DNA of 38,114 nt from Candidatus Obscuribacter phosphatis (GTDB taxonomy: Bacteria; Cyanobacteriota; Vampirovibrionia; Obscuribacterales; Obscuribacteraceae), in assembly GCA_001899315.1 (NCBI GenBank), contig MOYA01000001.1, forward strand, positions 2,822,195 through 2,860,308, given 5' to 3'. This document shows, in pieces, positions 18,640-38,055 of this stretch. Below the pieces are notes generated by a model that saw only the letters and a program-made list of their open reading frames with translations, was not told the origin of the DNA and searched no databases. The position numbers were made by a program, and so were the translations under genes. Within the stretch, counting starts at the first letter, position 1. Each line of letters starts with the position of its first letter.

Positions 18640-18945
18640 ATGGTTCATTTCGGATTAGCAACTACCGCCGAGATAGCCGAGGAACTCGCAGCTAAGCTAC
18701 GCGCGCATAGACTTTCACAAAACATTTCACAGAGAGAATTGGCGGCCCGTGCCGGAATTTCCAATAAGACACTAACAACCTTCGAGCAGTCTGGCAGAGT
18801 TTCGCTCGATGTATTTTTGCGTATTGTCGCGGCCCTTGGGCTATCTGAGTCACTGTCGACACTTTTCGAACTAAAGCAACAAACGATTAAGGAAATGGAA
18901 GCAACTCAACAGAGGCGACAACGAGCATCGCGAAGACATCCATGA
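18640..18945 (+). CDS. hipB: HipB-like antitoxin (XRE helix-turn-helix)
   Basis: A Cro/CI-type helix-turn-helix occupies about residues 15-70: LRAHRLSQNISQRELAARAGISNKTLTTFEQSG, followed by the dimer helix (LRIVAALGLSESL). HipB binds its own operator and neutralises the HipA kinase. I choose ATG 18640, with GGAAAGA directly upstream, over the GTG at 18619 that lies inside the operator. The C-terminal 25 residues are charged and basic (QRRQRASRRHP), perhaps flexible like the HipB tail. The stop overlaps the hipA start by four bases (ATGA), so translation is coupled. Confidence 0.85.
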   Translation: MVHFGLATTAEIAEELAAKLRAHRLSQNISQRELAARAGISNKTLTTFEQSGRVSLDVFLRIVAALGLSESLSTLFELKQQTIKEMEATQQRRQRASRRHP

Positions 18946-20171
18946 AAAAATTGAATGTCATTTATACGGGCTGGGGAGAACGGTTCACTCTAGGGGTCTT
19001 AGCCGACAACGGCAGAGATATTCTGTTCGAGTACACGGCTGAAGCTATTAAGCGGGGCTTGGAACTCTCGCCATTTAAAATGCCCCTGAGCAGCAAGTCC
19101 TTTGGAAATCATCCTGCGCATCAACTGGGACTGCCCGGACTAGTAAGCGACTCCTTGCCCGATGGTTGGGGCATGGAGGTGATGGACAGACTCTTCCGCA
19201 AGCAAGGACGAGATCCCGCTGAGGTGTCACCGCTTTTCAGACTGGGATGTATCGGCGAGACGGCGATGGGCGCGCTTGCATTTGAGCCTAGCGAGATCGA
19301 TAGTTTGCCAGCAGAAGACGTGGAGTTACTCGAACTCGCTCAAGACATTCGCCATGTATTCGAAGAAAATGAAAGCGAAGAAGTGCTTCGGAAGCTTGTA
19401 CTAATGGGAGGTTCACCGCACGGTGCGAGACCGAAGGTACTAGTCAATTTCGACAAGAATGCGAATCTAATTTCCACACCAGCGTCTGGCCGAGGAACGC
19501 CGATGATGGTTAAATTTCCGGCACAGAATGAGCACAAAGAAGCATGTGCTATCGAGGCGCTATATTGCGGGCTCGCAAAGGCGAGCGGCATAACCGTTCC
19601 GGCTTGTCATTTTTTCGATCTGGATAAAGATATTTCTGCCTTTGGTATCGAACGCTTCGACCGTGTTGAGGGCATGCGGGTGCCCATGCACACGGCCGCT
19701 GGCGCAGCGCATGTAGATTTCCGGCATCCACAACTTGACTATATTTCCCTGTTGCGATTGACCAAGTTTATGACGAAAGATATGCGCGAGGTGCTCCATG
19801 CATTCGAACGCTGCATCTTCAACGTGCTATTTAACAATCGGGACGATCACTCGAAGAATTTTTCGTTTCTTATGGAGAAGGACGGTCGATGGAGGTTTTC
19901 ACCAGCTTACGACCTAACTTACAGTCTAGGACCAAATGGTGAACACCAGATGGACATTTGCGGCGAAGCACGGACACCCAGCCGCAAACATCTATTGGAA
20001 TTGGCGGATAGAACTGGAATCAAGCGGAACGCAGCCAACAAATCTATCGATCGGATTGCGGCGGTGTCAGAATCTTGGCTTCAACTGGTTGGCGAGTTAC
20101 CCATCCGCGAGAAAACGCTGGAGCGGATCGAGAAAGCTATAGCGGCAAATCGAAAGCGTCTCAGAGAATAA
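18942..20171 (+). CDS. hipA: HipA-family Ser/Thr kinase toxin
   Basis: All parts of a full-length HipA are present in 409 residues. An N-terminal HipA_N segment (YTGWGERFTLGVLADNG) is followed by LPDGWG, a phosphate-binding loop GGSPHGARPKVLV that includes a possible autophosphorylation Ser, a kinase Lys region (MVKFPA), the catalytic loop NNRDDHSKNFSF with Asp301 and Asn306, and the metal-binding Asp of SPAYDLT. HipA of E. coli phosphorylates GltX and so halts translation; the target here is not known. Start overlaps hipB by four bases. No catalytic residue looks lost, so it should be active. Confidence 0.88.
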   Translation: MKKLNVIYTGWGERFTLGVLADNGRDILFEYTAEAIKRGLELSPFKMPLSSKSFGNHPAHQLGLPGLVSDSLPDGWGMEVMDRLFRKQGRDPAEVSPLFRLGCIGETAMGALAFEPSEIDSLPAEDVELLELAQDIRHVFEENESEEVLRKLVLMGGSPHGARPKVLVNFDKNANLISTPASGRGTPMMVKFPAQNEHKEACAIEALYCGLAKASGITVPACHFFDLDKDISAFGIERFDRVEGMRVPMHTAAGAAHVDFRHPQLDYISLLRLTKFMTKDMREVLHAFERCIFNVLFNNRDDHSKNFSFLMEKDGRWRFSPAYDLTYSLGPNGEHQMDICGEARTPSRKHLLELADRTGIKRNAANKSIDRIAAVSESWLQLVGELPIREKTLERIEKAIAANRKRLRE

Positions 20172-21040: not shown

Positions 21041-21352
21041 AAACCAGGTGCTTTCGGTCCCCCCAAAAAAAAGAAACTGACGCAGAACAAAACGCCCACA
21101 CCTTCTCACATCCTTTTTTTTGAGAATGCTAGAAGGCATGCGCCTTGTATCGCCTGATCTCAATTTAGAAATGAAATTGGTGGAGTCGGCGAGAATCGCC
21201 TGCACCCTTATTCTCATTAAGACTCGTCAATTGATTTTGTTTGACGGTGCGGGTTTCGGAGTTTTGTCGCCTGCGCGGAGCGGCGCTAATGGTCCCAGAT
21301 GGACACATGAGATCCACAAAACGGGCCACAGCTCTAAAAGAATTTTGGGGTA
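21041..21352. repeat. Attachment-site repeat copy A (ssrA 3'-end copy with flanks)
   Basis: The core at 21178-21198 matches the 3' end of the tmRNA gene with one mismatch (T for G in GGAGTCGGC). From 21081 to 21352 the sequence aligns with 27164-27437 over nearly equal length. Its far left (AAACCAGGTG at 21041) matches the left flank of the ssrA copy at about 32856, at a similar distance from the core. This looks like an old junction between two integrated elements. Confidence 0.75.
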
Positions 21353-27134: not shown

Positions 27135-27437
27135 CGTGATTCCAGCTGAGAAAATATTATTTACGCAGCACAAAAAGCCCAAACCTTCGCACATCCCTCT
27201 TTTGAGAATGCTCGAAAGCATGCGCCTTGTATCGTCTGCTCTCTATTTAGAAATAAAAATGGTGGAGGCGGCGAGAATCGTCTGGGCAGCCGATCTCATT
27301 AAGACTCTTCAATTGATTTTGTTTAATGGTGCAGCTTTCGGGCTTTTTGTCGCTCGCGCGAAGCGGCGCTAATTGTCCCGAATGGACACAGGAGGGTCCA
27401 CAAAGTGGGTTACAGTTTTTGAAGATATTTTGGGGTA
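27135..27437. repeat. Attachment-site repeat copy B
   Basis: The 29 bases 27252-27280 are identical to 32980-33008 at the 3' end of ssrA, and 27164-27437 aligns with 21081-21352. The sequence just left (27135, GTGATTCCAG) resembles the left flanks of copies A and C. It probably marks the junction between two tandem elements. Confidence 0.8.
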
Positions 27438-31645: not shown

Positions 31646-32821
31646 TTGAATGCGCGATCATTAGAGCACCGCATACAGTGCCTCGCAAATCGCGCACCGA
31701 AGGAAGAATCCACGGCAGGCGTCAAAGATGGTATCTGGAAACGTGGTAACAATTGGTACATCTCGGTAAAGATCAATGGCCACCGCCGAGTGAAATCTTT
31801 CGGACGCGACCGCAAAGCCGCGGAGCTTGCGCTAGCCAAAATCTTGAAGCATCGTGCAGTTGCGAATGCCACAAGTGATTGGTCTGGGTTGACTGAATTC
31901 ACCAAGCCAAAGACACGCGAAATGTTTGCAGAAGTGGCAGAAGACTATCTCGCGGAAAGAGCGAGTTTGAAATACAGCAGCTTGCGCGGCTACCGCAAAG
32001 TGCTGAAGAACTATTTGCTTCCTGCGTTCGGCAAGATGGAAGTGAGCGACATCACAGAAGAAGACATCGCCCACTTTCAGGCTGAAGTATCGAAAAATGT
32101 TTCAGCAGTCAGAACTTATAACATCATGGGTCTGCTGCGGTACATCATGAAAGTCTGTTTGCGAAGAAAGTTGAAAGCCGAAAATCTCACTGCCGGAGTT
32201 CGCCAGCTCACGGAAAAGAAACCAGACATCGATGCGCTGACCAAAGAGGAACTCGAACTCGCGCTTTCAAAAATCGTTCCACACTATCGAGCTTTGTTTA
32301 CCGGCCTCGCATGGACCGGAGCCCACCCGAATGAACTATTTGCTCTCCGCTGGAAAGACATCGATTTCAAGCGAGGCGAAATCCGCATCAACAAAAGTAG
32401 AGTACGCGGATCGGAAGACCTGCCGAAAACAGCATCGAGTTCGAGAATTGTTCCGATGCTAACCGTCGTGCGCGTTGCACTAGAGCAGGAAAAATAGAAG
32501 GGCGCTACCAATCTAGACGGACATGTATTCACGACCAAGAGCGGCCAGCCCATAGACAAAAATCTTGATCATGTATGGCGTACAGCATTACGGAAAGCCG
32601 GTCTTCGACATCGGCCCTCATATCAGCTCCGGCACAAGTTCGCTTCGCTTTGCTTGGAGAATGGAGTCACGCCAGGATGGCTAGCCAATGTGCGCGGCCA
32701 CTCGACTCTGCAAACGACATTTAAACACTACGCACGATTCATCAAAGACACGTCGCGCGAGAATGAGGCTCGTTTGGAACATCTACTTACTCCTGGCTCT
32801 CACCGCGAAAGGAAGGTATGA
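31646..32821 (+). pseudogene. Tyrosine integrase, interrupted by in-frame TAG
   Basis: The N-terminal part has an AP2-like arm (GIWKRGNNWYISVKINGHRR) and a SAM-like core-binding domain (FAEVAEDYLAERASL). The catalytic domain starts TGLAWTGAHPNELFALRWKD, where the first catalytic Arg is His227 (CAC; one transition from CGC). At 32495-32497 a TAG ends the frame; reading on gives the rest of the enzyme, QLRHKFASL, GHSTLQTTFKHYARF with the nucleophilic Tyr, to TGA at 32819. Two lesions indicate decay. Start: TTG 31646, uncertain. It lies next to the ssrA attachment copy C. Confidence 0.85.
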
Positions 32822-32987
32822 ACCAAGCTGAAGATTACCCAAAAAATCCTTACCAAAACCAGGTGATTTCAGTTCCCAAAAATAAATTGACGGGCCACAA
32901 AAGGGGCCACACTTGCATGCAAACGCAAAAACGCGAATACTCAAAAGTGTGAACCAGTGACGCTTTGAAGCCTGTTCTTAATAAAAA

Positions 32988-33381
32988 TGGTGGAGGCGGC
33001 GAGAATCGCACTCGCGTCCAAAGTCGCCGAGAAGCAAGTTACTACAAGCTTAGTCTGATATTTCCTCAGTCACCTTGTGGGTCCGCTGAAGGCGGCTCAG
33101 ACCGCCGACCGGGTTCGCGATTATGGCTTAACAGGTGCTAGCACTCGCTAACTTTGCACCCGGGCAACTACCATGGTTTACCCTTGCGCTTCGGGTAGTC
33201 AGGAAGCGGTCGAGTACCGCGCCTAAGTTAAATTAGGCAGCAAGCGCAAGCTTAGCTTGACGCTTGGCGGTGAAATCGATGACGTTATTGGCATCTTTGT
33301 TTTTGCTTATTTATTAACGAGGCACAAGCTCCCCGGCTTGCAACTTACGACCCAACAGCCCTGTCGAATCTAAACGCCCCC
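32988..33381 (-). ncRNA. ssrA: tmRNA (transfer-messenger RNA)
   Basis: The 5' end GGGGGCG (33381-33375) pairs with the acceptor 3' strand CGCCTCC before ACCA (ending at 32988); the invariant GATTCGACAGGG follows the 5' end, and the T-loop GCGATTCTCGC precedes the 3' end. The tag frame starts at GCC and reads ANNVIDFTAKRQAKLALAA, then TAA (about 33235-33295). tmRNA with SmpB rescues stalled ribosomes and marks peptides for proteolysis. CCA is encoded and a T-run follows. It is one-piece. The 3' 21 bases are the attachment site of the island. Confidence 0.95.
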
Positions 33382-34540: not shown

Positions 34541-34674
34541 TTTCTAGCCTCCAGAAATCGCCATTTAATATAACCTATCGATTTAATCTAAATCTTGAGA
34601 ATCAGTTGAAACTTTTTGCCAGCCAGTTCGTATGCATCCATGTGAGCATTTTTCTTAATGGCGGAGACAAAATC

Positions 34675-35460
34675 ATGTACGAAGGGGCGAAGGCGGTTTT
34701 TGTGCCATTTCTTGTGGCGGCGCTTCTGTGTGTGGTGGCAGAACTAATCTGGGCGGCTGTCAAAAAGAGAGAAGTTTATAACTTCAAAGAAACACTCTGT
34801 AATCTCTCGATGCTGGTAATCAACCGGTCTACCCAGTTTATGTTCTTAGGCTACACCTATTGGGTGCTTTCCCTTATGGAGAAACTGCAGCCCCACCGAC
34901 TGGCGGATACCCCACAGAATGCCATTCTAGCGATAATCTTTGTCGATTTTCTGTACTACTGGGAACATCGGGCGCTGCATACCAACCGCCTGCTCTGGTG
35001 CCTGCATCAGGTGCACCACTCCAGTCCCTGGTTTAACTTTACCGCCAGCTTTAGGTTGCACTGGCTGGGTCGCATTATCACACCAATTTTCTTTGCCCCA
35101 GCAGTAGTGGCAGGCTTTTCGCAAGATCAGATAATTCTCTTTGCCACAATCAATCTTATCTATCAGTTCTTCTTGCATACCGAAATGGTCGGCAAACTCG
35201 GCTTTCTTGAAGGCATTATCAACACACCATCGGCGCACCGGGTGCACCACGGCAAAAACGAGATTTATCTAGACAAAAACTTTGGCGGTTTATTTATGAT
35301 CTGGGATCGCCTTTTTGGCACCTATCAGGCTGAAGAAACCAAACCAGTTTATGGCGTTACCGAAGGCTATTTTGGAGCCAACCCTTTTGTGGTGCAATCG
35401 GCCCTTTTTCGTCGTTTCTTCAAAGAGTTGTTCAAAAATGCTAAGCAAGCCATTCGCTGA
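34675..35460 (+). CDS. Fatty-acid hydroxylase superfamily membrane protein (sterol desaturase-like)
   Basis: An integral membrane di-iron hydroxylase. Hydrophobic segments lie near residues 8-28, 45-65 and 130-155. The His clusters are HRALH (after YYWE), HQVHH, and HRVHH after TPSA, as in ERG3/COG3000 proteins, with LHWLG between. Its lipid substrate is unknown; in bacteria relatives act on ether lipids, carotenoids or sterol-like molecules. I take ATG 34675, preceded by GGAG nine bases away; the frame extends to TTG 34606, but the added part lacks a ribosome site. Confidence 0.8.
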   Translation: MYEGAKAVFVPFLVAALLCVVAELIWAAVKKREVYNFKETLCNLSMLVINRSTQFMFLGYTYWVLSLMEKLQPHRLADTPQNAILAIIFVDFLYYWEHRALHTNRLLWCLHQVHHSSPWFNFTASFRLHWLGRIITPIFFAPAVVAGFSQDQIILFATINLIYQFFLHTEMVGKLGFLEGIINTPSAHRVHHGKNEIYLDKNFGGLFMIWDRLFGTYQAEETKPVYGVTEGYFGANPFVVQSALFRRFFKELFKNAKQAIR

Positions 35461-35814
35461 TTCATTTGCCGCTCAAATTTAGACTCAAAAGCAAGTAAAG
35501 TCTCACTAAAAGCATATAGCCAGACTGCCTCACTGGCTGCCAAACAAGCCATCTCAATGACTACCCAGCTAAATGACTGTGCAATAGCACATTAACCGGG
35601 CGAGGCGAAAATCGTATTATTCAATCACAAAGGGGACATGGTGATGGACCAATTGCGGTGATTGAATTTTCTTCGATTCCTCCAGGCAATCGCCCGATTT
35701 TCCTCCGCCATCACCATGCAGAATAGAGCTTGCTTTGCCGCTCAAAGGGGTGGGGAAAAGGCAAGCTCAATTCTGCGTCGTTATTGATAGAACCAACTAG
35801 GGCTTTGCAGTAGG
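35461..35814. other. Convergent intergenic region with two abutting hairpins
   Basis: No gene is seen. Two strong inverted repeats occupy 35637-35776 (see the separate entry). Neither has a clear T-run, so a simple terminator role is doubtful. Confidence 0.5.
35637..35776. ncRNA. Candidate structured RNA: two adjacent long hairpins
   Basis: Hairpin 1: CATGGTGATGG (35637-35647) pairs perfectly with CCATCACCATG (35708-35718); an inner stem CGGTGATTG / CAATCGCCCG (35656-35664, 35687-35696) is nearly complementary. Hairpin 2: GCAGAATAGAGCTTGC (35718-35733) pairs with 35761-35776 at 15 of 16 positions, plus three more pairs toward the loop. The loop is G-rich (GGGGTGGGG). Strand is unknown. Confidence 0.4.
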
Positions 35815-37200
35815 TCAGGATTTGGCGCCTACCAATTCTGCGCTGCTTGCCTTTATACAACCGAGCTTGGCTGCCATTCTACGAAAGAAGGCAGGCATAT
35901 GCAAATAGGCACCATGGGCAGAGACAGCATCCAAACCCGACTCAAAGACCTCATCATCTAGATTTTCACTGATAGCTCTGGCACTATAACTAAATAAATC
36001 AGAAGGGTCCCAAACATTCCAGAAATAGCCGAGATGTCTGTTTCTAGCTAGCACATCGACACCTGCAGCACCAATAGCAGTGGCACCAACTCCGGCGGCA
36101 CCAGTACCAGTACCAACACCATTACTAGTGAGAGCAGCACCACTTTCGAGGAAAAGCTTCAATTCATGAAACAACCCCACTTGTGAAGCAGTGGCACACC
36201 AGAAATCTATCACTATCTGACTACAATGGGGCAAGCGCGGCAAAAAGTGAGTAACCACGTCATAGACAATCTGACCGCCCATGCTGTGACTGACCACGAC
36301 AATGGGTTCGCCGCCGCGCTTCAGCTTGGTTTGCTGGGCTGACTGCAAAGCATTGATGAAAGCACGCGGGATAGCACCAGGTTTAGTATCGCTTCCCCGG
36401 GTAGAAAGATAAGACCAAATATCATAAACAAACTTGGCGGCAGCAGATTGTGCTAATTTCTCCAAGGGACTTTTACCAAAGGTTGCAGTGCTACTCAAGA
36501 GATCAACCATCACCGAATCTTTTATTGTCGGCATACTTAGCCGATCACGATAGAGCGGTTGATATTCAGCCCTAAGTAAATCAAAGCGTGCGGACATCAA
36601 GCTGCGCAAAAGCTTCATTTCGTCACAGACTGTTTTGCACTGGCTCATCTGCATAAATGTATCTTCGTCAAATGCCACTTCATCGGCAGCTATACAAGCA
36701 ACAAGCTCGTCAATACCAGAAAGCTTCCCACTCTTCCTAATGCCTTGACACAGCAAATTGCTGAGCGCCTCGCGGCTAAGACGGGTAAAACTGCAGGTAG
36801 TCCTACCGCCGTCTGAGAGCTTTTCTCTAAGGGCTTGAAAGCGACCACTCTCGGTCAGTCTAGCCGAAACAGGACTTTTGATACCGACTGCTTTCACCGG
36901 TCTGAGTTTTGAAAGTGCCTGGGACTTGTCTTTGATACCAGAGAGCCCTTCGCCGACAAGCTCACTCAAACCGCTTGTTTGCATAAAGCGCGAAAGACCT
37001 AAAAGAGTCAACCAACGGGCACCTGATTGGTCCGATAGGTCGCTCCAATTGCAACGGCTAATTTCGACACCGGCAGGATCATCAGAGATACATGGAGCAA
37101 CAAATCGGCGAAGCAAAACTTCTATCTGTTCCCAATCACGCTCATCGCGAACAGACACGCCGTGCAAATATATTATCGGCAAGATCAAGTCTCCATGCAC
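35815..37200 (-). CDS. Alpha/beta hydrolase-fold protein
   Basis: The start MHGDLILPIIYLHGVSVRDE resembles the first strand and oxyanion region of lipase-like folds. The nucleophile elbow is VVVSHSMGGQIVYD with Ser306. An acid may be Asp in NVWDPSDLF, and the His may be in SAHGAYL. Residues 80-280 form an unusually large helical insert, and a Gly/Ala/Thr-rich low-complexity loop (GVGTGTGAAGVGATAIG) lies near residue 365. No signal peptide is seen. Substrate unknown; relatives include esterases and lipases, some linked with phage defence, but nothing shows that here. Confidence 0.6.
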   Translation of the reverse strand: MHGDLILPIIYLHGVSVRDERDWEQIEVLLRRFVAPCISDDPAGVEISRCNWSDLSDQSGARWLTLLGLSRFMQTSGLSELVGEGLSGIKDKSQALSKLRPVKAVGIKSPVSARLTESGRFQALREKLSDGGRTTCSFTRLSREALSNLLCQGIRKSGKLSGIDELVACIAADEVAFDEDTFMQMSQCKTVCDEMKLLRSLMSARFDLLRAEYQPLYRDRLSMPTIKDSVMVDLLSSTATFGKSPLEKLAQSAAAKFVYDIWSYLSTRGSDTKPGAIPRAFINALQSAQQTKLKRGGEPIVVVSHSMGGQIVYDVVTHFLPRLPHCSQIVIDFWCATASQVGLFHELKLFLESGAALTSNGVGTGTGAAGVGATAIGAAGVDVLARNRHLGYFWNVWDPSDLFSYSARAISENLDDEVFESGLDAVSAHGAYLHMPAFFRRMAAKLGCIKASSAELVGAKS

Positions 37201-37437: not shown

Positions 37438-38055
37438 ATGATCGCAAAAAGCCTGCAAGAGTCTGACAAACAGCCCCAAAAGTCATTCAGCGCTGCAGAG
37501 ATAGGATTGATTTTGAAAGCGGCGCACTTTGCCGCCAACAAACACAAAAGCCAAAAGCGCAAAGGCGCAGAAGCCTCGCCATACATTAACCACCCGCTGG
37601 AAGTAGCCGACCTCATTTGGAATGCCGGCCAGTATCACGACCCAGAAGTAGTATGCGCCGCTATATTGCACGACACTGTTGAAGACACTGAGACTACATT
37701 CAACGAAATTGAAGAGCTTTTCGGCAAGCGCATTGCCTCACTCGTTAAGGAAGTAACCGACGATAAGTCTCTGCCGAAAGCCGAGCGCAAGACTTTGCAA
37801 ATTGAACATGCCCCTCATTTAACCGAGGGGGCTTCACTAATTAAGCTCGCCGATAAGACAAGCAATGTTAAAGACATAGTCAATGACCCGCCCCCAGACT
37901 GGAGCGAGGAAAGACAGCATGACTATGTGGAATGGACTAAGCTTGTGGTAAACAAGCTGGCGCCGGTGTGCCCGCCTCTGAAAGAACATTATGAAAGAAA
38001 TTACCAGAGCGCAAAAGCAACTCTGGCAAAACAAGCTAAAAAGATTCGAGATTAA
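37438..38055 (+). CDS. HD-domain hydrolase, MESH1/SpoT-hydrolase type
   Basis: A single HD domain of the RelA/SpoT family without synthetase: His52 in SPYINHPLEVA, His78-Asp79 in ILHDTVEDTE, and Asp139 in LIKLADKTSN. The spacings of 26 and 60 residues equal those of the Mn ligands of MESH1. EDT is the hydrolase-type signature. It probably removes pyrophosphate from (p)ppGpp or a related nucleotide (animal MESH1 also acts on NADPH). GAAGAG lies before the ATG. Confidence 0.8.
   Translation: MIAKSLQESDKQPQKSFSAAEIGLILKAAHFAANKHKSQKRKGAEASPYINHPLEVADLIWNAGQYHDPEVVCAAILHDTVEDTETTFNEIEELFGKRIASLVKEVTDDKSLPKAERKTLQIEHAPHLTEGASLIKLADKTSNVKDIVNDPPPDWSEERQHDYVEWTKLVVNKLAPVCPPLKEHYERNYQSAKATLAKQAKKIRD

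Follow-up and report, generated by a model that had tools for sequence, protein, structure and literature searches.

A candidate activator-driven small RNA gene between convergent genes of Candidatus Obscuribacter phosphatis

What is the role of a short, strongly folding stretch of DNA that lies between the ends of two convergent genes and resembles neither a standard terminator nor a catalogued RNA family? The question is raised by a locus in Candidatus Obscuribacter phosphatis (contig MOYA01000001.1 of assembly GCA_001899315.1), which we analysed within a window of 38,114 nucleotides, this being the whole stretch of DNA under study and the one to which all positions given here refer. The reading that we favour, with a probability of roughly 0.6, is that the locus contains a stand-alone small RNA gene of about 151 nt whose transcription would be driven by an activator protein. 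The genome from which the window comes is referred to as G000, and its two genus-mates in the search set as G001 and G002.

Two hairpins between convergent genes

The features on which the argument draws are as follows, with the strand given where one applies.

34606-35460, + strand: fatty acid hydroxylase gene (PF04116), the upstream neighbour, common to G000, G001 and G002
35577-35592: palindromic promoter box defined from family copies, consensus CTGTGCAATWGCACAG, here CTGTGCAATAGCACAT
35578-35591: family motif TGTGCAATAGCACA, the core of the box and the left end of the conserved unit
35592-35597, + strand: weak -35-like hexamer TTAACC, adjoining the box (TTAACA in G002)
35615-35620, + strand: -10 hexamer TATTAT, at offset 37 counted from the first base of TGTGC; kept in G002, replaced by TATTCT in G001
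35627-35777, + strand: predicted small RNA of about 151 nt, its start placed from the -10 position and its 3' end from the hairpin
35637-35718, + strand: stem 1 (35637-35647 with 35708-35718), with an inner stem (35657-35664 with 35687-35694)
35665-35686, + strand: CU-rich loop AATTTTCTTCGATTCCTCCAGG, inside the stem 1 element
35702-35706, + strand: second CCTCC motif, inside the stem 1 element
35718-35776, + strand: terminal hairpin, which includes stem 2; 24 pairs, -34.4 kcal/mol, z -6.65
35815-37200, - strand: convergent neighbour encoding an alpha/beta hydrolase-like protein (weak match)

An earlier note on this DNA, made from the letters alone, had described two abutting inverted repeats between convergent genes, a reading that is partly supported by the present analysis. 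The hydroxylase gene on the + strand does face a gene on the - strand, the product of which matches the Pfam alpha/beta hydrolase family at 23.4 bits (cut-off 26.3). The arms of stem 1 are complementary at 11 of 11 positions, those of stem 2, GCAGAAT-A-GAGCTTGC (35718-35733) and GCAAGCTC-A-ATTCTGC (35761-35776), pair at 15 of 16, and the G at 35718 is common to both stems, all as had been described. The G-rich loop reported for stem 2 is not simply a loop, being partly paired (CCGCTC with GGGGTGG), so that the terminal hairpin consists of 7+9+2+6 = 24 pairs closed by a loop of 4 bases. The palindrome and the promoter formed no part of that description, and the feature begins at 35577.

A region of 206 nt around the two stems folds with a z score of -4.95, none of 200 shuffles being equally good, and the reverse complement of the same region also folds well (z -3.09, 1 of 200 shuffles equally good). 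Because the reverse complement also folds better than its shuffles, folding is not decisive as to strand, and the + strand was assigned to the element from its promoter. Positions 35626-35778 have z scores of -4.41 in G000 and -4.86 in G002. Much the strongest signal is that of the terminal hairpin, which taken alone reaches z -6.65 in G000 and -7.37 in G002 (0 of 300 shuffles equally good in each) and is the lowest in energy of 6342 windows of 64 nt sampled every 6 bases on the + strand. The stem 1 half taken alone is not significant in either genome, with z -1.32 and 34 of 300 shuffles equally good in G000, and z +0.29 and 168 of 300 in G002. One of its pairs is broken in G002, where G35641 has become T, and the addition of sequence 5' of the predicted transcript start replaces stem 1 by another fold. 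Stem 1 is less certain than stem 2.

A hairpin of this strength between gene ends suggests at first sight that it serves only as a terminator or 3'-end protector, possibly bidirectional, for the two convergent genes, the rest of the locus being incidental. The element does lie between convergent genes in G000, G002 and G001, and its hairpin is the strongest sampled in the window, but no T-tract follows it, and sites with a GC-rich stem followed by a T-tract number zero on either strand of this region, both here and in G002, by which an ordinary terminator was rejected, in agreement with the earlier note. Such a role is also at odds with the 140 bases that precede the hairpin, which are more conserved than the hairpin itself, and it leaves the box and the -10 hexamer unexplained; we regard it as unlikely.

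The earlier note had recognised no RNA family here, which is borne out by a search of the window against Rfam, where a tmRNA at 32988-33381 was the only match at or above the gathering cut-off; at E values up to 5, the only models matched in 35400-35900 were two of microRNAs, with scores well short of their cut-offs. The 3' end of this tmRNA gene, which is on the - strand, is repeated over 29 of 29 and 27 of 30 bases at two sites to its left (32980-33008, 27252-27280 and 21170-21199). A phage-integrase-like gene (31646-32497) lies near these repeats, a gene for a HipA-like protein (HipA_C and Couple_hipA; 18942-20171) is found to the left of the left-most one, and a related tmRNA-end repeat is present in G002. 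From its sequence, the arrangement resembles a pair of integrative elements that have inserted in tandem at ssrA.

A conserved unit with sharp ends

When positions 35580-35800 were compared by BLASTN with 60 relatives, matches were obtained in only two, the genome itself and G002. A covariance model built from these two sequences likewise found only G000 and G002 among 50 family genomes, together with weak reverse-strand matches of the element to itself. Other weak BLAST matches, of 17-44 bases and E values of 0.012-0.094, fell in 12 further genomes and in G001. A match in G027 was rejected as an RNA homologue, since it is the box preceding a gene for a GGDEF-domain protein.

Between G000 and G002, positions 35577-35776 are identical at 189 of 200 sites, with 11 substitutions and no insertion or deletion. 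Fourfold-site identity is 37-69% in the eleven window genes that have matches on the G002 contig, and the binomial chance of 189 in 200 is at most 6e-19 against 69%, the fourfold identity of the least diverged gene. The best 100-nt window of the unit is 97% identical, the median of 1764 aligned 100-nt windows being 80%, and windows as high or higher occur only at the tmRNA and near 37971-38011. The conserved block starts at the palindrome and stops at the hairpin. To its left, the intergenic DNA gives no alignment to G002, and to its right, the DNA from hairpin to gene end can be aligned only with gaps, at 52-68% in 40-base steps. Conservation inside the unit is lowest, at 77.5%, over the 3' part of the hairpin (35741-35780). 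The locus thus has the conserved, structured and sharply bounded form of a bacterial small RNA gene.

Sharp ends and high identity amid diverged flanks could also mark a mobile or selfish DNA element, or a recent transfer that has left high identity without selection. Such an origin is highly improbable and was rejected, given that the unit is present in single copy in its own genome, occupies the same place in both species, flanked in G002 by orthologues of both neighbours (the hydrolase-like gene being present there with one in-frame stop), and carries its promoter within the conserved block; no plasmid or phage matches were found, nor any in viral contigs for one exact 18-mer.

The predicted transcript (35627-35777) differs from that of G002 by ten substitutions and no indel. 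On the structure used, three of these fall on paired positions of the hairpin and one disrupts a pair of stem 1, the remaining six being at unpaired positions. The earlier note had proposed that homologues be sought in related genomes and covariation tested. The element is indeed kept in a close relative, the sequence search finding few genomes. Pairing is maintained at all three changed hairpin positions, each altered on one side only, and there is no two-sided change among the pairs counted in the two sequences.

In all six frames, the substitution pattern summed over segments of at least 12 codons gives 14 synonymous against 40 nonsynonymous changes, and no segment of at least 20 codons has more synonymous than nonsynonymous ones, two shorter segments (14 and 18 codons) having 2 against 1. 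The constraint on 35577-35776 therefore does not look protein-coding, on a test of 11-13 changes only, and in this respect too the locus is like a small RNA gene. The longest frames after the predicted start are of 41 aa at +35 in G000, 52 aa at +102 in G001 and 112 aa at +108 in G002, the last of which starts inside the hairpin and extends past the conserved block. A coding peptide was rejected on the substitution pattern. That the unit is the gene of a short peptide or leader peptide, such as MVMDQLR after AAAGGGG, is very unlikely: the ribosome-binding-site-like AAAGGGG does precede ATGs in the window and in G002, and protein genes follow most sites at which the box and a -10 hexamer occur together, but the peptide would have only 5-7 codons, with no gene in the same direction after it, and the coding test speaks against it as well.

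A palindromic box at a fixed distance from a -10 hexamer

The left end of the unit coincides with the palindrome, which is predicted to be an activator-binding site; judged from its sequence, 35577-35592 probably has this function, with its centre about 42 bases 5' of the start predicted for the RNA. The -35-like hexamer beside it is a better one in G002 (TTAACA) than in the window (TTAACC), and matches of this kind occur at chance level over the whole window. Since both terminator-like and promoter-like patterns are at chance level window-wide, the promoter is argued from its conservation and from a spacing common to the family.

The box was searched for in 50 family genomes of 24 genera with the reversed pattern as control. 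The motif TGTGCWATWGCACA has 34 copies in 21 of the 50 genomes, as against none for the reversed control, which differs in dinucleotide make-up, and in 18 of the 34 copies it is both preceded by C and followed by G, though neither base was required in the search. These 34 sites were collected without requiring a -10 hexamer. At exactly offset 37 from the box's first base, 25 of them nevertheless have TANNNT on one strand or both, the other nine having it on neither. Counted by strand, offset 37 is occupied in 27 of 68 strand-sites, whereas the other offsets from 16 to 79 are occupied 0.92 times on average and at most 5 times. When box and -10 were sought jointly with any four-base spacer, 57 sites were found in 18 of the 50 genomes and 10 of the 24 genera, most of them in g12, g5, g1 and g21, compared with 3 for the control. 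By sequence, then, the predicted small RNA gene has a promoter of its own, of a build shared by 25 of 34 family sites.

Most of these sites appear to serve protein genes. At 38 of the 57 sites, the longest ORF that starts in the stretch scanned is at least 90 aa long and begins no earlier than -4 and no later than +40 relative to the predicted start; random positions taken from these loci give 124 of 570. Among the 19 sites that lack one are the three of the genus; seven of the 19 have an ORF at +61 to +116, L153(-), L175, L193, L199 and L204 have short ORFs only, and L156, L157(+), L182 and L208 distant ORFs only. No hairpin comparable to that of the window was found at the 16 sites of these 19 that lie outside the genus.

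Thirty box-adjoining proteins were scanned against Pfam; L096 among them adjoins a variant box, and several, for example L099, L134(+), L142, L143, L145, L150(+) and L159, are on sides without a -10 hexamer at offset 37. Matches were obtained for 20 of the 30 and none for the remaining ten. They comprise seven helicase-like ATPases, three TPR proteins, two RadC-like proteins and one each of a YhcG nuclease, an ECF sigma factor, DUF2314, GGDEF, a phosphatase, FHA, DUF3800 and a sub-threshold Tcp10_C; two further ECF sigma factors lie behind boxes at L184 and L206. The genes found behind TGTGC-N4-GCACA with a -10 at offset 37 include those of TPR proteins, helicase-like ATPases of about 490 aa, ECF sigma factors and proteins without a Pfam match. 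Each of G000 and G002 also has a second exact copy of the box, at G000:C3:163241 (L099) and G002:C6:61303 (L095), in similar surroundings: a DUF2314 protein gene lies on one side, and on the other an ORF of 121-126 aa with a -10 at offset 37.

To which class of regulator might such a box belong? In the cyanobacterial CRP-activated genes described in PMC2633013, the 16-bp site TGTGAN6TCACA is followed, at a distance of about 22 bp, by a TAN3T hexamer. The class II CRP promoters presented there share with the window a palindrome followed by a TAN3T -10 and a distance of 30 bp from box centre to hexamer (PMC2633013), which leads us to infer a class II activator of CRP/FNR-like kind. The box found here differs in its half-site and spacer, being TGTGC with N4 (14 bp) rather than TGTGA with N6 (16 bp). 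As in class II CRP/FNR promoters, the palindrome stands at a fixed distance in place of a -35 element, with offset 37 in 25 of 34 sites and 57 joint sites against 3 controls.

The SOS box bound by LexA in E. coli is CTGT-N8-ACAG. The consensus of the present box can be read in the same way, and some of the proteins beside it are RadC-like or helicase-like. Genes with a LexA DNA-binding domain are present in six of six genomes, and the best match to the box in each 3.2-kb lexA-like locus is 10-12 of 16 positions, the one with 12, in G024, being situated about 200 bases upstream of the match. The six loci thus hold nothing closer than 12 of 16, and the LexA identity of the box was dropped because none has a close copy of it. 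The upstream sides of five of these lexA-like genes (L162-L166) were read, and they share ACTATACTTACGTATG upstream of position 1501, a candidate SOS box of the lineage.

The third genus member and the predicted RNA

In G001, an exact copy of the 14-base box is located 1.4 kb downstream of the fatty acid hydroxylase gene, and between the two lies a gene for a glycosyltransferase of the MGDG synthase family, the 3' end of which extends into the box. The hexamer TATTCT follows at offset 37, and the longest frame after it, of 52 aa, lies inside a hairpin of -37.4 kcal/mol at +90, which ends within 1-2 bases of the distance from the start seen in the window. The three strongest hairpins among the 57 sites are those of the genus (-35.9, -37.4 and -41.5 kcal/mol, located at +87, +90 and +90); none of the remaining 54 sites has one stronger than -32.6, and 1 of 171 random positions attains -35.9. 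Hairpins of -37.3 and -37.1 occur beside two boxes on a strand that lacks the -10, at L145(-) and L150(+), and lie inside the frames of the protein genes that follow.

The transcript predicted for G001 can barely be aligned to that of the window (shuffle p 0.006-0.05), and its locus is taken as the orthologue by place and build, that is, by synteny, box, spacing, length and hairpin and not by sequence identity. When the hairpins of G000 and G001 are set against each other helix by helix, both sides have changed in 10 of 15 compared pairs, which is not taken as proof because two unrelated hairpins would look alike.

Another reading is a cis-antisense role, in which transcription from the box would continue beyond the hairpin, enter the convergent gene at its 3' end and limit its expression. 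The promoter does point at that gene, the stop-codon end of which is 39 bases past the hairpin. The convergent genes themselves differ, however: the hydrolase-like gene of G000 and G002 was not found in a search of G001, where the convergent gene encodes a protein kinase-domain protein instead. Together with the poor conservation of the DNA between hairpin and gene end, this makes such a role quite unlikely.

For the stand-alone small RNA gene, the following course of events is proposed. An activator, probably of the CRP/FNR kind, would bind the palindrome and stand in for a good -35 element, so that RNA polymerase could use TATTAT and start near 35627 on the + strand. The RNA of about 151 nt would end in or just past the terminal hairpin, which may protect its 3' end. 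Because the same box would drive many protein genes of the family, the RNA would be made together with that regulon. Its mode of action is a matter of speculation. Most likely it would act in trans, through exposed CU-rich loops with two CCTCC motifs, for which ribosome-binding sites are conceivable pairing partners.

LhrC of Listeria and RsaE of Staphylococcus are described in PMC4132741 as stem-loop sRNAs with CU-rich unpaired stretches able to pair with Shine-Dalgarno sequences, and the loop AATTTTCTTCGATTCCTCCAGG and the second CCTCC of the window resemble the Shine-Dalgarno-binding stretches reported there (PMC4132741). The predicted RNA differs from both in having CCTCC and not UCCC, in lacking a T-tract after its terminal hairpin and in being present in single copy. 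The transcript of G001 has ATTTTCTT...CCAGG between GGTG and CACC arms.

A search for the complement of the loop with at most 2 mismatches returned 39 matches in G000 and G002, roughly the level of the controls, with 21 in the former against 9 controls and 18 in the latter against 16, the element itself being included in each. Of 30 loci examined, two are the element itself and 24 fall within frames longer than 150 codons. One match, with 2 mismatches in 15, is placed immediately before the start codon of a gene in G000 (L122) as well as in G002 (L109), and covers the ribosome-binding-site region of a gene (L122:1480-2495) for a protein with FHA and adenylate/guanylate cyclase domains. It is a lead and not a result, because it ranks 6th of 184 gene starts by duplex energy; if true, such a target would suit a CRP-like circuit.

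More broadly, the RNA may represent a class that is kept by its box, length and terminal hairpin while its sequence turns over almost entirely between species of the Obscuribacterales, and that works through shape or short loops within a CRP-like regulon. In the boldest form of this doubtful proposal, the RNA would be part of a feedback loop: turned on by a CRP-like regulator, it would restrain the synthesis of cyclic nucleotides by way of the FHA-cyclase gene.

Activator-driven small RNA genes are already known as a kind, and the box, its regulon and this RNA were not found described in the open-licence literature searched. There, a full-text search for small RNAs of Obscuribacter returned no paper, nor did the string TGTGCAATTGCACA, and papers on noncoding RNA in Melainabacteria were off the subject by title and abstract. 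The RNA would be an early candidate for a regulatory RNA in an uncultured sister group of the cyanobacteria, and the strict spacing of its promoter box yields testable predictions about the regulator and about the conditions under which it acts.
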